From a virus, in IMG/VR virus record IMGVR_UViG_3300042373_001130, positions 1 through 29,590 of that record: a stretch of DNA of 29,590 nt. One strand, 5' to 3'. The position numbers and the translations under genes are program-made. The stretch's first letter is position 1. The number at the start of each line of letters is the position of its first letter. Below the pieces are notes generated by a model. It saw only the letters and a program-made list of their open reading frames with translations, was not told the origin of the DNA and made no database searches. This document shows positions 2,067 through 22,992 of the stretch, in pieces.

Positions 2067-3236
2067 TTATTGTACAGCCATTTTGACTACATTAGTATTC
2101 ATCATCATTTTAGAGAACTTGTTTTTGTTTCCATTAACAATCTCTTTGACCATATAATATCTTAAGTCATTTGTAAATGCATCACAGTCAGTAGTTAACT
2201 TAACTAATCTATTAATCATTGCATCCGGTACTGGTTTAGTATCAGCATAAGTCAATGAATAATTAATCAATCTGGTAGCAATAACACTAGAGATATCTGC
2301 TCTAAAGTCATCATCTTTACCTACTGCACCTGTTAAAGCTCCCATAACATAAGCTTCATCTTTTGTAAAGGTATCTTCCGGAGATATAATTCTATCTAAT
2401 TTGTTATTAATAAACATAGTAAACATACTAGAGAAATCAACACCAACTGAACCTTCACCAATCATTTGGATTAACGGAAGATCATCTTCAAACTTAGGAA
2501 TAGAACTAATACCATTAAAGAAAGTAGTCACAGATCTTGGATTAACTCTTTGAGTTACAAGTTCTGGATTCATCAACATAAAGTTAATACATCTACCATC
2601 AATCTTAGCTTGTTCTGCCCATTTAGCCCATACATTTACATCATACTTCAACTCAACAGAAATAAATCTTGTTTTCTGAGCTACATCTAGACTAGTAACA
2701 TTATAGTCACCATTGTCTGGATTAGTAGTCAAGATAACATGCCAGTTCTTTGGTAACTTCCAAGAAACATATTCTTGTCTATCTAATATTTCCATAGTTG
2801 CTTGCATAAAGCGGTGATCAGCTCTAGTATAATCATCTAATACTAAGAAACCACCTTCACCTTTACCTTGAATCCATTCCGGAGCAGCATGAGACATGCG
2901 TTTATCTACAATCTTAAAGCCTGCTTTTTGAGCTGCTTGAATCTGTGCTTCATTAATCCATTTAGTTTGCCCTTCAGCATTCTGGATTTGAAATTCTTTT
3001 ACAGGAAAACCTACTAAATCACCTAATTCTTCTAACTGAGATAAATTAAGTTTTACTACTTGCATGTTTAACTCTTTACCCAACTGCATAATAGCTGAAG
3101 TCTTACCAAGACCAGCATCACCTTCAATATTAATAGCCACAGGAACTTTTCCTTCAGTCTGGATATGTTGGTTATTCTTAACCATGTGTTTAATAAAACT
3201 TTTTAATTCTTCTACATTTAATTGAACTTGACTCAT
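2067..3236 (-). CDS. MoxR-type AAA+ ATPase
   Basis: This 389-aa ATPase has the Walker A motif GDAGLGKT at residues 39-46, Walker B 'FLVLDD' at 130-135, a sensor-1 Asn in 'TTNPDN' near 172, and a probable arginine finger in 'QKTRF' near 190. MoxR-family ATPases act as chaperones that remodel a partner, usually encoded next door, that carries a von Willebrand factor A (VWA) domain. That partner is the gene immediately upstream, 11 bp away. The substrate in the infected cell is unknown. The gene ends at a terminator, so it is the last gene of its operon. Confidence 0.93.
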   Translation of the reverse strand: MSQVQLNVEELKSFIKHMVKNNQHIQTEGKVPVAINIEGDAGLGKTSAIMQLGKELNMQVVKLNLSQLEELGDLVGFPVKEFQIQNAEGQTKWINEAQIQAAQKAGFKIVDKRMSHAAPEWIQGKGEGGFLVLDDYTRADHRFMQATMEILDRQEYVSWKLPKNWHVILTTNPDNGDYNVTSLDVAQKTRFISVELKYDVNVWAKWAEQAKIDGRCINFMLMNPELVTQRVNPRSVTTFFNGISSIPKFEDDLPLIQMIGEGSVGVDFSSMFTMFINNKLDRIISPEDTFTKDEAYVMGALTGAVGKDDDFRADISSVIATRLINYSLTYADTKPVPDAMINRLVKLTTDCDAFTNDLRYYMVKEIVNGNKNKFSKMMMNTNVVKMAVQ

Positions 3237-3247
3237 AATTCTTTTTT

Positions 3248-4561
3248 TTATAATTCTAACTTAATAACTTTACCCGGAAGATCATTATTCATTTCTGATC
3301 TTTCTGATATAACCCATAGGACATTACCTTTAGGTCTAACTGAAGCATCACATTCACCATCTGTAAAATATACTAGACTGGTAAACTCTCTCTGATGTTC
3401 ATTATAATATTCTAAGACAGGATCAAATTGTGTTCCTCCTCTACCATGAACTTCAAGTTCATTCTTTCCTTTATAAGATTCAATACTACGGATACTAGTA
3501 TCACACTGTATTATAGTAATATCTACTCCTGCTTTATAAATATGATGTATCTCAGACATAAACTCAGTCAATTCATCATTACTTACAGAACCTGAAGTAT
3601 CAATAGCTAATAGCATGTGTTGTTTCATCTTTATCTTAAGACCTGGATTGTCAGAGAATCTTCTATTCTCTTTTCTTCTAATCTTTTTAGTATAAACTTT
3701 TGAACTAACACCGGTAAATCTTCTGATATATCCGCGCCAATCAAATTTAGCTGCAGTAATTTCATCTAATTTAATAACACCATCAATCTCACCAGGTATA
3801 GTACCTCTTTTCTTTATAGTTTGATCTTTAGCATCAGATAAAACTTTTTGCAATTGCTTTTCAATTAACTTTTGCTCAGCTTCAGTAAGATTCTCAAAGT
3901 CTTCCCATGTACTATGATCAGGCATTCCATCATTATCTCCTTGATCCATTTGATCACATAGAGCATCAAAATTAGAATCACCTGAAGTACCAGTTTGATC
4001 TTTCTTATCCTTAGCTTCTCTTAGCTTATCATAATAATAATTAGCACCTGCTTTAATATCTAGATTTAGATCAGCATAATCTTCTAACATTACACCTCTT
4101 GGCGGAAGTTTATCAGCAATTGCTTTTAGTTCCTCTAGTGTAGCATTATTTTCTTTAGCATATTCTAATTCAAGCTGTACAGCTGTTTTAAGAGCATTAA
4201 AACCATCAGCTGATAACTCGGCTCCTGGAAGCCATGTTCTATCAATATACTGATTGATTTCCATATCCATAGCAATGTTTGCTAGTCTCTTATCTGAATA
4301 CTTAAAGTATGTAGTAAGATGACCAAATGCAATATGCAATAATTCATGTTTAAGTAGACCTAGTCTATGTTCTTCACTAAGACTCATCCAAAATGTTTCA
4401 TTTATACATAACTGATAATTGATACCATTTTTACTTACACCAGCTGTTGGGACTCTTTTGTCATCCCATAGCTTGTTTAACATAATGAGAAAGAACCCGT
4501 AATAGGGCTCTTTCAACATTAAATCTTTACATATTTTACTAAGACTTTGTTGTTTAGTCAT
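3248..4561 (-). CDS. Metallopeptidase-like plus VWA-like protein (DUF2201/COG3864 type)
   Basis: This 437-aa protein has two parts. The N-terminal part carries an HExxH zinc motif (H72-E73-L-L-H76), with a further His at 81 and an 'AMDMEINQYID' helix after it, as in the putative metallopeptidase domain of DUF2201 proteins. The C-terminal part, from about residue 315, is VWA-like, with the metal-ion adhesion site 'DTSGS' near 320, a 'GGTQF' segment and 'TDGE' near 403. The linker is acidic and low in complexity. In bacteria this architecture is paired with MoxR ATPases, as it is here. The start overlaps the end of the upstream gene by 8 bp. Whether the peptidase centre is active cannot be told. 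Confidence 0.9.
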   Translation of the reverse strand: MTKQQSLSKICKDLMLKEPYYGFFLIMLNKLWDDKRVPTAGVSKNGINYQLCINETFWMSLSEEHRLGLLKHELLHIAFGHLTTYFKYSDKRLANIAMDMEINQYIDRTWLPGAELSADGFNALKTAVQLELEYAKENNATLEELKAIADKLPPRGVMLEDYADLNLDIKAGANYYYDKLREAKDKKDQTGTSGDSNFDALCDQMDQGDNDGMPDHSTWEDFENLTEAEQKLIEKQLQKVLSDAKDQTIKKRGTIPGEIDGVIKLDEITAAKFDWRGYIRRFTGVSSKVYTKKIRRKENRRFSDNPGLKIKMKQHMLLAIDTSGSVSNDELTEFMSEIHHIYKAGVDITIIQCDTSIRSIESYKGKNELEVHGRGGTQFDPVLEYYNEHQREFTSLVYFTDGECDASVRPKGNVLWVISERSEMNNDLPGKVIKLEL

Positions 4562-16159: not shown

Positions 16160-16615
16160 TTATTTTAAAAATTGATAAGCCCTAGTACTTTCATCTAAAC
16201 TAAAGAAGTAAGTATCTCCACTCATATCTATCATCATATAATCAGATGCTAAGAAACTTGTTAAGAATGCAGCATCATCTTTAATATTATTTTTTACAAT
16301 AGCCATTTTAAGACCTTCTGTAACTCTACCATAAGTAGTGTATTCAGTTATTCTATCTCCTTTTTTAAAAGTAATAACAAAAGTAGCATCCCCACTGTTC
16401 CCAAATTGGTAACCTTCTAACAGACTCAAAAATAAAACTATTTTATTATCTGACTTAGCTAATGATATAGCACCATCATTATCTGGATACTTAAATATAA
16501 CAGTTCTAAAATCACCATCTTGTTTAAGATAGATATTATCTCCTATTACTGTTGTTTCTTGTGCAAAAGTTGTTAAACTTAATAACAATGTTAATGCAAA
16601 TATAATCTTTTTCAT
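16160..16615 (-). CDS. Secreted (periplasmic) protein with signal peptide
   Basis: This 151-aa protein has a typical Sec signal peptide: 'MKKIIFALTLLLSLTTFAQ', with cleavage expected after 'TFA'. The mature part is beta-rich ('TTVIGDNIYLKQDGDF', 'YTTYGRVTEGL') and has no Cys or known enzyme motif. An exported protein in the early region could act at the host envelope, for instance in exclusion of other phages, but this is inference. Its start overlaps the stop of the gene before it, and its stop lies 6 bp before the next ATG. Confidence 0.8.
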   Translation of the reverse strand: MKKIIFALTLLLSLTTFAQETTVIGDNIYLKQDGDFRTVIFKYPDNDGAISLAKSDNKIVLFLSLLEGYQFGNSGDATFVITFKKGDRITEYTTYGRVTEGLKMAIVKNNIKDDAAFLTSFLASDYMMIDMSGDTYFFSLDESTRAYQFLK

Positions 16616-16818
16616 AATTCTTTAGTTTTTTCTTGTTTATATTCTTTATAATTAATCCAGAAACCAATTGCTACTATGATATTCATACCAAAGGAAGCAA
16701 TTATTTCCATAACATCTTCATACACAGTGGTCATTAAATGAATATGACCAATAGTCCAGAATGGTATAGCCAAGTTTTGACTAATCCATACTATAGTAAA
16801 TTTAAGAAAATGTTTCAT
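16612..16818 (-). CDS. Small membrane protein, 68 aa
   Basis: It has hydrophobic segments near residues 5-28 ('FTIVWISQNLAIPFWTIGHIHLM') and 38-55 ('IIASFGMNIIVAIGFWI'), followed by a charged C-terminal tail. It is coupled to the secreted-protein gene (4-bp overlap), so the two may work together at the envelope. Confidence 0.75.
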   Translation of the reverse strand: MKHFLKFTIVWISQNLAIPFWTIGHIHLMTTVYEDVMEIIASFGMNIIVAIGFWINYKEYKQEKTKEL

Positions 16819-20485: not shown

Positions 20486-20758
20486 TTAGTTCCTGTAAAG
20501 TTTGGCAATTCTTTTTTGTTCTTGCTCTCTCTTCTCAAAATCCTCTCTAAGACAATTTTTGAAGTTTCTTTCAGTGAGCTCAATCTTTTTGATCTCTTCT
20601 GGATCCTCAATATCAAGTAAGATATTTTTTCTTTTTTCTTTTTCATACAATTCCCAGTTATAAATTTCCATTTGTTTCATTTCAGACATTTCTCCAATAG
20701 TTAAACCTTCTGGTATGCCATCATTAGCTTCCATGACCTGCATGTAGACTTCTTTCAT
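20486..20758 (-). CDS. Small charged helical protein, 90 aa
   Basis: It begins 'MKEVYMQVMEANDGIPEGLTI' and has 'MEIYNWELYEKEKRKN', a sequence type I recall from Bacteroidota phages. A second ATG three codons earlier exists (20767); the ATG at 20758 forms an ATGA overlap with the upstream stop and is preferred. It is very charged; the function is unknown. Confidence 0.78.
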   Translation of the reverse strand: MKEVYMQVMEANDGIPEGLTIGEMSEMKQMEIYNWELYEKEKRKNILLDIEDPEEIKKIELTERNFKNCLREDFEKREQEQKRIAKLYRN

Positions 20759-21195
20759 TCTTCCCATTCTAAACCTTTTTTAATTAATTCTCTAATTGCA
20801 GTATGCATATACATATCATTTTTATCAGCATACATCTTTACTTGGCCATATAACATTTGATCCAAACTTAACATGACTTTGCTTCTTTGCTTAAGCTTAG
20901 ATTTTATATTAGGTTCAGGAAAAGTAAATGGAAATAACTTTTGTACTTCTGTAGTATTCTTAATGAATGTACCATCTTGCAATAACAACAAGAAATAAGG
21001 AATCTTTTTAGATATGTTTATTGTACTTCTATCAATTTTAAATATAAAACCTAACTCATCTTCAGTTAAATTAAACTTATAAAACATTAAGGCTAGTAAA
21101 TAGTTTCTATTATCTAAGTAGTTTCTTTTTCTTGTTTTCTTGATTATAAACACATTGGTTAAATAATCCCGGACATCTGTTTCTGTATAACTCAT
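20755..21195 (-). CDS. DNA-binding protein with DnaA domain IV-like HTH
   Basis: Residues 20-65 ('RKRNYLDNRNYLLALMFYK', 'EDELGFIFKIDRSTINIS') follow the pattern of DnaA domain IV: a basic start, a long helix, then a helix-turn-helix ending in a 'DRSTIN' recognition segment like the 'DHSTV' of DnaA. The last 40 residues ('LDQMLYGQVKMYADKNDMYMHTAIRELIKKGL') resemble a ribbon-helix-helix end. A transcription regulator or an origin-binding role would both fit. It carries no AAA+ domain, so it is not a full DnaA. Confidence 0.7.
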   Translation of the reverse strand: MSYTETDVRDYLTNVFIIKKTRKRNYLDNRNYLLALMFYKFNLTEDELGFIFKIDRSTINISKKIPYFLLLLQDGTFIKNTTEVQKLFPFTFPEPNIKSKLKQRSKVMLSLDQMLYGQVKMYADKNDMYMHTAIRELIKKGLEWEE

Positions 21196-21375: not shown

Positions 21376-21648
21376 TTAGACAGCTAGTTCTTCTTCAATT
21401 AACTCTTCTTCCTCTACTGCATTTTCTAATGATTGATCTATTAAGATACCAAATCTATCAGCATCATAATACTCATAAGGAAAAGAATTTTTAGATAAAG
21501 ATACTTCTTTAAGAAGATATCCAAACTTACCTGCTTGGATACCCATTTTTACTGTTTCAGTAACAGTATAGATAGTGCCTTCCTTAATCCACTCATTTTG
21601 AGGAATCTTAACTGGCTTTTTAGTATCATTAATGCATATGACTTTCAT
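21376..21648 (-). CDS. Conserved Bacteroidota phage protein, 90 aa
   Basis: The protein begins 'MKVICINDTKKPVKIPQNEWI' with 'EGTIYTVTE' next, and later 'NSFPYEYYDADRFGI', a form I recall from many Bacteroidota phages (a small beta-barrel-like protein). It ends in a very acidic tail. The function is unknown. Its first 20 bp overlap the ClpS gene. Confidence 0.85.
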   Translation of the reverse strand: MKVICINDTKKPVKIPQNEWIKEGTIYTVTETVKMGIQAGKFGYLLKEVSLSKNSFPYEYYDADRFGILIDQSLENAVEEEELIEEELAV

Positions 21649-21883
21649 GTTCTTCTACAGTAACTTTAAGTCCCAAAGATACTAAATCTTCACTTATAGT
21701 TTGCATATCATACCATGAACCATTTTTTATATGACATTTACCGTTACTATGTGTAATTAATGCACACTGCTCAGCTTGAATAGGATCATGATTACATAAT
21801 TTAATCAAGCAAGCCATAACATAAGGAAAATCATTTATGTCATCATTGTGCATTATAAGTTTGTGTGTATCAGATATATCCAT
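21629..21883 (-). CDS. clpS: ClpS-like N-degron adaptor
   Basis: This 84-aa protein aligns over its whole length with ClpS of Bacteroidota. The substrate-pocket residues are present with exact spacing: 'HNDD' (Asn13, Asp14) and 'ITHSNGKC' (His45), 32 residues apart as in E. coli (Asn34, His66). 'IQAEQCALI' and the 'VSLGLKVTVEE' strand also match. ClpS delivers proteins with bulky N-terminal residues to ClpAP or ClpCP. Only six residues precede the core, compared with about 27 in E. coli, so the N-terminal extension needed for delivery there is absent. It may therefore inhibit or redirect host degradation. It overlaps the next gene by 20 bp. Confidence 0.88.
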   Translation of the reverse strand: MDISDTHKLIMHNDDINDFPYVMACLIKLCNHDPIQAEQCALITHSNGKCHIKNGSWYDMQTISEDLVSLGLKVTVEEHESHMH

Positions 21884-21900
21884 ATAACTAATATAATAAA

Positions 21901-22992
21901 TTATAATGTAATGTTAAAGTTTTTCCAGAGTATTTTACTTTGGTCAAATCCTTCTAGAGCATCTTTTACCCATTTTTCATCTACAGTGTCTTTATAACAT
22001 AAAATGTGGATAATAGCTTTATCATCAGGATTTAATCTGAGAAGCCGCCCGATGCGCTGACTGGCCTTACGCTCATTACCATAAGCATGCATGATAATAC
22101 CTTGTTTTAAATCTGGTATGTTTATACCTTCATTTAACTGCAGAACAGTTGAAAGTTTATTAATCTTACCATTTTTAAATAAATCTAAGTTTACCTCAGA
22201 TTGGGTATTATTACTATGATAACTATAATTACATAGTTTATCAGCTTGATCTTGAGTATTAGCAAACAGAATACATTTACTTTGGATGTCTTCAAATAAT
22301 TTTTTAGCATAGTGCTCTTTACTTGGATACTCCATCATAGCTTTCATTCTCATAACTCTCATAATATGTACTGGACCAGAACCTGTTTCTAGTCTATTAC
22401 ACCAGTAACTATAGTTCTGAACTTCAGATGTCATAAATGATCTGTTCTTCATATTAACTGGAAAGTTCTTCTGATTACTTAAGTAAAGCTCATGTACAAT
22501 GATTTGATAATCATTTAAGATACCGTTCTCAATAGCTTCATCTGCTTTAAAAGTATATGCTACAGGACAGAATTCATGTACTAACTTACCTTTTTCTGAA
22601 TCTTTATATCTAGGTGGAGTACCCGTTAAACCTAGTACTTTACCTTTATATAATTGCAAAAATCCCCGGTGACTATCAAGTAATGAATGACATTCATCTA
22701 GACATACAATATCAAAGTCTTTTGGATCTTTCTTATTCAGACTTAAGTAAGTAGTAAATACTATTCTACCTAATAAATGATGCATATTAAACTTTTCAGC
22801 ATCATCTTTCCATGACTGAAATATTGCTTTTTTAGGAGCAACTACCAGTATTCTCATTAGTGGTGTACTGTTTCTCTCAATATAGTTTAGGCCAACAAGG
22901 GTCTTACCGACCCCTGTGCCTAAACAGATTGAACTTCTTTGTTTACTATCAGTAGCAGCTAATGCTTCTAGTTGTATGTCTTGTCTGTCCAT
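21901..22992 (-). CDS. Superfamily 2 DNA/RNA helicase
   Basis: This 363-aa helicase has motif I 'GTGVGKT' (residues 25-31), motif II 'DECH' (99-102), motif III 'GLTGTPPR' (121-128) and motif VI 'QRIGRLLRL' near residue 315. It is close to the DEAD/DEAH group of phage helicases (UvsW-like in plan) that remodel branched DNA or R-loops. It lies between ParB-like and ClpS genes, with gaps of 1 and 17 bp. There is no extra nuclease domain. Confidence 0.93.
   Translation of the reverse strand: MDRQDIQLEALAATDSKQRSSICLGTGVGKTLVGLNYIERNSTPLMRILVVAPKKAIFQSWKDDAEKFNMHHLLGRIVFTTYLSLNKKDPKDFDIVCLDECHSLLDSHRGFLQLYKGKVLGLTGTPPRYKDSEKGKLVHEFCPVAYTFKADEAIENGILNDYQIIVHELYLSNQKNFPVNMKNRSFMTSEVQNYSYWCNRLETGSGPVHIMRVMRMKAMMEYPSKEHYAKKLFEDIQSKCILFANTQDQADKLCNYSYHSNNTQSEVNLDLFKNGKINKLSTVLQLNEGINIPDLKQGIIMHAYGNERKASQRIGRLLRLNPDDKAIIHILCYKDTVDEKWVKDALEGFDQSKILWKNFNITL

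Follow-up and report, generated by a model that had tools for sequence, protein, structure and literature searches.

The window, that is, the whole stretch of viral DNA that was analysed, comprises 29,590 nucleotides of IMG/VR record IMGVR_UViG_3300042373_001130 and carries on its minus strand (21629..21883) an open reading frame with an ATG start that encodes a short phage ClpS of 84 amino acids. The translation scores 50.8 bits with PF02617, for which the cut-off is 23 (E 1.5e-13), with ORF residues 5-69 aligned to profile positions 4-68, and no other Pfam family was found at E values up to 1. Directly upstream, on the same strand, is a gene for a DEAD/ResIII-type helicase (21901..22992; phrog_16, E 9.9e-42). 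On the downstream side lies ORF90 (21376..21648, minus strand), encoding a conserved small protein to which no function is assigned, and its start overlaps the 3′-end of the ClpS gene by 20 nucleotides (21629..21648, minus strand) that code for both proteins. An AF2 model of the 84-residue protein, based on a 70-sequence alignment, has a mean pLDDT of 93.4 and contains the ClpS core. ClpS proteins, alone or in complexes, filled the top 25 rows of a structure comparison (Z 12.9-15.3), ahead of ribosomal L7/L12 at Z 9.9, and the nearest solved structures include peptide-bound ClpS. The core fold is that of E. coli ClpS (2wa8, 3o2b: Z 14.2, 26% identity over 78 residues). A sequence-only reading of this DNA had placed an 84-residue ClpS at these positions, which the PF02617 match bears out, and had called for a structural model as a check on the pocket; the model keeps the ClpS fold that holds the pocket.

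Relatives of this protein are widespread in viruses, with at least 558 stretches in viral contigs encoding one. Among 80 of these loci (L017-L096), the pocket asparagine is preceded by more than 12 residues in 73 and by 12 in seven. A scan of viral contigs with an alignment of the short form returned 225 stretches, 80 of which were examined. At least 119 viral stretches also carry a DNA pattern written exactly for the short start, which presupposes that start and is silent on length. In a tree of 194 ClpS sequences, the short proteins are monophyletic (54 distinct sequences, support 0.999, with no others inside), while deeper supports, which bear on where the clade branches, range from 0.0 to 0.9. 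Their pairwise identity spans 40-99%, and 49 of the 54 are exactly 84 amino acids long. The phages that carry them are also united by the neighbouring gene: in a helicase tree of 73 sequences, for which short-clade phages with a helicase of at least 300 amino acids were used, the 50 helicases from short-ClpS phages form a single clade (support 0.991). Absence of the N-terminal extension (NTE) is a trait of a phage clade and not of a single gene.

Twelve residues precede the pocket asparagine in the window protein, compared with 33 in E. coli. The E. coli NTE comprises residues 1-25 (PMC12493166), and residue 1 of the phage model aligns with E. coli residue 23 in the structure comparison, so that nearly the whole of the extension is without counterpart; nothing in the phage protein is equivalent to E. 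coli residues 2-21. The first strand of the model spans residues 7-12, in keeping with the earlier count of six residues ahead of the core. A disordered NTE that could extend to the pore of the unfoldase, a feature expected of adaptors competent for ClpAP-type delivery, is lacking in the window protein. No ATG, GTG or TTG lies in frame upstream of the window start, and the open frame closes 10 codons upstream. Across the clade, 11-12 residues precede the asparagine in all 54 sequences, and the start is retained among members down to 40% mutual identity. Counted as loci, 75 of 81 sequences (80 loci and the window) have 12 residues before the asparagine and two have 11; the other four (L184-L187), which account for two of the 54 distinct sequences (L184 and L185), have 21 residues when read from an upstream ATG, and were scored from an internal M-E-D-L-A-T-H-K start that retains the 12.

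That the start has been misread, so that translation from another start codon or fusion with the helicase yields a longer protein bearing an NTE, is hardly credible: another in-frame ATG, GTG or TTG does exist further upstream in 7/54 short-clade sequences, and in L184 and L185 the internal ATG was preferred to one nine codons upstream, but 36 of the 54 (the window included) have no more than five open codons ahead of the ATG and 46 have fewer than 14, Met1 and Lys8 are present in every sequence, Thr6 in 45 and His7 in 46, and the helicase stop lies 2-39 nucleotides before the ATG at the 53 short-clade loci measured. The claim of the sequence-only reading that the NTE is absent is therefore upheld, since the start is sound and 11-12 residues precede the asparagine throughout the clade.

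The N-degron pocket is conserved. The codons for Asn13-Asp14 (21842..21847, minus strand), the counterparts of E. coli Asn34-Asp35, and for His45 (21749..21751, minus strand), the counterpart of His66, specify the Asn-Asp-His set found in the E. coli protein, and the 32-residue spacing from Asn13 to His45 equals that from Asn34 to His66 over a gap-free alignment, confirming the spacing that had been noted from the sequence. Asparagine and aspartate are present in all 54 short, 63 long phage and 77 bacterial sequences, as is an aromatic residue at the position of E. coli Met40; the histidine is found in 49/54 short, 63/63 long phage and 77/77 bacterial sequences. It is replaced by Asp or Asn in the short-clade proteins L086, L213, L251, L254 and L255, and the specificity of these five may differ. 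From these residues the phage ClpS should still recognize proteins by a bulky hydrophobic first residue.

The short gene is under purifying selection, with a median dN/dS of 0.26 outside the overlap (592 pairs with dS <1.5, from 49 sequences), a value that shows it is not a relic. That it is a host gene decaying without function, as its short length and the loss of His45 in 5/54 sequences could suggest, is very improbable against this dN/dS, the constant length of 84 residues in 49/54, the Asn-Asp pair in 54/54 and the high pLDDT of the model.

An N-terminus as short as that of the phage protein was not found among bacterial ClpS. In the 80 bacterial loci with the closest sequences (77 of them Bacteroidota by record title; L137, L164 and L175 are titled outside that phylum), none has fewer than 24 residues before the pocket asparagine when the longest ATG start is taken, and in the four without an upstream ATG other start codons give 26-44. 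These loci were selected by similarity to the phage query, and a second sample was therefore drawn phylum-wide, consisting of 30 loci from 41 genomes, 40 of which contain ClpS. The profile recovered 29 of the 30; L381, the strongest Pfam match, fell outside the profile recovery and was left out of the 29. An ATG at 26 or more residues is available in 28 of these, and the remaining one (L397), without an upstream ATG, has a GTG/TTG at 27. Two members of this sample are unusual, L390 having a Met at 10 in addition to that at 38, and L391 being a divergent copy that lacks the pocket asparagine. The possibility that host ClpS is itself short was accordingly rejected (NTE-less in 0/80 nearest and 0/29 phylum-wide loci). 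It had been a worry of the sequence-only reading, which held that short Bacteroidota ClpS would weaken the contrast; with lengths of at least 24 and at least 26 in the two samples, and with host ClpS of the phage length searched for at these 80 and 29 loci and not found, the contrast holds.

The same length difference separates the clade from other phage ClpS, of which the other 62 distinct sequences have 23-38 residues before the asparagine (overcalled starts above 40 set aside). In addition to these 62, L072 has 32 residues and falls outside the short clade in the ClpS tree. The long-NTE phage proteins include those of three unannotated phage records of 635-642 kb, LR745206.1, LR756502.1 and LR756504.1 (L008-L010), which have 26-29. 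A corrected DNA pattern for short ClpS matched 85/266 loci, every one a short ClpS of the THK type, with no bacterial or long-NTE locus among them, and found none in 148 bacterial genomes; this pattern is blind to the QYK, DYK, PYK and SHK types and to 11-residue forms. An earlier pattern found none in 296 bacterial genomes, a weak negative in that the Leu codons TTA and TTG were omitted from it.

A second departure from other ClpS proteins is found at the start of helix 3 (residues 58-63, including Tyr58, Asp59, Gln61 and Ile63; 21695..21712, minus strand), which matches the Glu79-Lys84 stretch of the E. coli protein. E. coli ClpS docks on ClpA via Glu79, Glu82 and Lys84, according to PMC12493166. 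Position 58 is hydrophobic in 45/54 short, 2/63 long phage and 1/77 bacterial sequences, and acidic in 9/54, 41/63 and 49/77 of the same sets, respectively. At position 61, hydrophobic residues occupy 48/54 short, 20/63 long phage and 5/77 bacterial sequences, and basic residues 0/54, 28/63 and 53/77. Proline at position 62, present in 45/63 long phage and 72/77 bacterial sequences, is absent from all 54 short ones, 44 of which have a Glu that occurs in none of the long phage or bacterial proteins. Position 59 is acidic in 38/54 short, 25/63 long phage and 49/77 bacterial sequences. Position 63 is hydrophobic in 54/54 short and 35/77 bacterial sequences and also in 62/63 long phage sequences, and so does not set the short clade apart. 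All counts for the short proteins come from one clade with shared ancestry and do not represent independent events, and bacterial ClpS also vary at the docking positions.

Exact E. coli equivalents for these positions were considered and rejected, because a profile alignment places two extra E. coli residues ahead of helix 3 and leaves the register uncertain by two. With a constant offset, positions 58, 61 and 63 (Tyr58, Gln61 and Ile63 in the window) correspond to Glu79, Glu82 and Lys84; with the two-residue gap, it is Ser56, Asp59 and Gln61 that correspond. Position 61 is a docking position under either register, and Gln61 of the phage protein replaces Glu82 or Lys84 depending on which applies. 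With helix 3 altered in this way, the short proteins may not dock on ClpA at all.

The gene order around the short ClpS is constant. Homologues of the helicase and of ORF90 were each found at 53/53 other short-clade loci, and the overlap between ClpS and ORF90 is 20 nucleotides in 52 of the 54 sequences and 23 in the other two. ClpS and ORF90 are thus probably translated together, and the conserved tail of ClpS is dual-coded. For that reason the C-terminal pattern E-x-[YH]-E-[SG]-x-[ML]-[HY] was rejected as a functional motif, as the same bases encode the start of ORF90. For ORF90 itself, neither Pfam nor PHROG gave a match at 0.01, and its structure matches are SH3-like, weak and non-significant (best Foldseek E 0.24); residues C5, P12, Y27, T28, P57, R65 and F66 are invariant in 54 sequences. 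Parts of this arrangement extend beyond the clade. A helicase lies upstream of ClpS at 24/62 long-NTE phage loci (56 of the 62 include at least 1,500 bases upstream) and at 0/80 bacterial loci, with a gap to ClpS of less than 100 nucleotides in 14/25 long-NTE loci when L072 is included, and an ORF90 homologue is present at 12/62 long-NTE phage loci, in none overlapping ClpS. Since the locus is partly common to long-NTE phages, loss of the tail in one phage lineage would be the simplest account. Two further small genes in the window have homologues near the short ClpS, one (20486-20767) at 50/55 short-clade and 0/62 long-NTE phage loci, and the other (16612-16818) at 51/55 and 0/62, the latter comparison carrying little weight because only 4/62 long-NTE loci hold 5 kb downstream.

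In every segment compared (14,084, 10,252 and 506 bases), the window and a viral contig of 114,550 bases are identical, and contigs of the short clade reach 112-123 kb. Seven of 23 protein queries from the Crassvirales phage cr52_1 were matched at 1e-3, mainly replication proteins: AAA (45% identity), DnaB (34%) and primase (28%) in the window, and DNA polymerase (27%) and endolysin (43%) elsewhere on the 114,550-base contig. The TerL and portal of cr52_1 gave no tblastn match at 1e-3 in positions 1-110,000 of that contig. By these comparisons the phage appears crAss-like in its replication genes only. Within the replication module, positions 2067-4561 of the window encode an AAA ATPase (phrog_1297) beside a VWA/metallopeptidase-like protein (DUF2201), the latter matching a PHROG labelled HNH endonuclease, a label that looks wrong. 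The nearest cellular ClpS, together with helicase relatives in Flavobacterium phages (29) and Bacteroides phages (29) among 81 records, points to a Bacteroidota host.

With regard to the Clp machinery, neither ClpP nor the Clp N-domain (Clp_N) was found in 11 short-clade contigs of 84-117 kb, which may be fragments, and ClpS would therefore act on host machinery or alone. In 15 short-clade contigs, also possibly fragments, a single ClpS was found in each and L/F-transferase in none. On the bacterial side, a ClpA model searched against 11 genomes gave two uninterrupted full-length matches, in the genomes of L098 Avrilella (L263, 795 bits) and L167 Capnocytophaga (L264, 772 bits), and none of the 11 reached the ClpA cut-off of 993. 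The other nine gave matches split into two halves of up to 433 bits each. Such a split match to a ClpA model would be expected of ClpC and ClpB, which have a middle-domain insertion. The split matches suggest that the usual host partner may be ClpC, and with an uninterrupted match in only two of 11 genomes, what holds for E. coli ClpA may not apply here.

Several known systems resemble the short phage protein in part. NTE-deleted E. coli ClpS has reportedly been made in the laboratory (in work said to be by Hou in 2008, Roman-Hernandez in 2011 and Rivera-Rivera in 2014); it is likewise a core without a delivery tail, but is man-made and leaves the remainder of the protein unaltered. Chromosomal ClpS of Bacteroidota are the nearest cellular relatives found and have QAEQCA, GK..VK.G and the aromatic gate residue in common with the phage protein, from which they differ in the residues before the asparagine (at least 24) and at helix 3, where position 58 is mostly acidic, 61 mostly basic and 62 mostly Pro. 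Long-NTE phage ClpS, including those of the Mahaphage-sized LR745206, LR756502 and LR756504, are phage-encoded too and in part lie beside the same helicase, but have 23-38 residues before the asparagine and no overlap with ORF90. Agrobacterium phage Atu_ph07 encodes ClpS as well as ClpA, ClpX and ClpP-like proteins, as stated in PMC6102473; its ClpS has 100 amino acids and is a fold match to the phage model in BFVD (E 3.0e-06), and the presence of its own Clp machinery sets it apart from the short-clade contigs. Other jumbo phages encode ClpS, for which PMC7824862 proposes a role in guiding targets to host ClpAP. In PMC7162821, on huge phages, the term 'ClpS' is absent from the main text, although three records of the sizes reported there encode one. 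Phage ClpS is thus already published; the NTE-less phage subfamily was not found in print, in a literature search whose coverage is thin for subscription journals.

In the E. coli complex the D1 ring contains NTE residues 16-26 and, for two of three classes, D2 contains residues 2-15. The NTE passes through the channel of the unfoldase, and barring its entry inhibits delivery (both from PMC9663308). By this argument, which stands for ClpA-like partners, a ClpS core without the NTE should bind yet not deliver. The reading favoured here, tentatively and at somewhat under an even chance, is that the short phage ClpS binds N-degron proteins without hand-over, acting as a shield or a competitor. 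The ClpS core would seize proteins with a bulky hydrophobic first residue, but it has no tail for the host unfoldase to pull and is changed in the helix with which E. coli ClpS docks on its unfoldase. With the tail missing and the docking helix altered, bound proteins would be held or shielded and not handed over, leaving an N-degron-binding core cut off from the protease. Host ClpS-dependent degradation would be lowered during infection by one of two routes, sequestration of N-degron proteins (processed phage proteins or host ones) or occupation of the unfoldase N-domains. Given the changed helix 3, free sequestration is about as likely as decoy docking. Weighing against the favoured reading are the loss of His45 in 5/54 short-clade sequences, the origin of the helix-3 counts in a single clade, and the register with the two-residue gap, in which position 59 is the counterpart of Glu82 and is still acidic in 38/54 short sequences. 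The sequence-only reading had proposed that the protein competes with host ClpS or protects phage proteins. Its foundations stand, namely the retained pocket and fold, the absent NTE and the contrast with bacterial ClpS, and its version of a competitor on ClpA is complicated by helix 3 and by the split ClpA matches. A narrower form, in which this tail-less, helix-altered and selected ClpS is a natural anti-adaptor of the N-degron pathway, capping bulky N-termini and thereby guarding phage proteins, or stabilizing host ones, from proteolysis by the host, is possible but doubtful.

Delivery could still take place if no NTE is required by the unfoldase of Bacteroidota (in most of them probably ClpC), or if it is the tail of the substrate itself that goes into the pore; the protein would then be an ordinary adaptor, redirecting host proteolysis to targets chosen by the phage. 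This alternative is unlikely. The retained pocket and fold, the lack of an uninterrupted ClpA match in 9/11 bacterial genomes and the view in PMC7824862 that phage ClpS likely brings targets to host ClpAP are consistent with it, but helix 3 is changed, and the NTE is dispensed with in none of the 80 nearest bacterial loci and in no other phage sequence collected, a retention that suggests that the NTE is needed in these hosts.

No more probable is a role within a phage complex. Here the repurposed core would attach by its remodelled helix 3 to a partner encoded by the phage, for instance the helicase or ORF90, and its pocket would be used for a phage protein. Both neighbours adjoin ClpS at 53/53 other short-clade loci, all 54 overlaps are of 20-23 nucleotides, and the hydrophobic helix-3 positions could suit such a contact, but the helicase is also upstream of long-NTE ClpS at 24/62 loci, and the overlap suggests coupled translation rather than contact.

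Work on E. coli ClpS describes an NTE that powers hand-over, and a phage clade that lacks this tail offers a natural test of that model, one that is sharpened by other phages that keep the NTE, some of them beside the same helicase. If the favoured reading of a core that shields N-degron proteins is true, the short ClpS would be a small reagent for blocking the N-degron pathway and, in infection, a phage counter to that pathway in bacteria.
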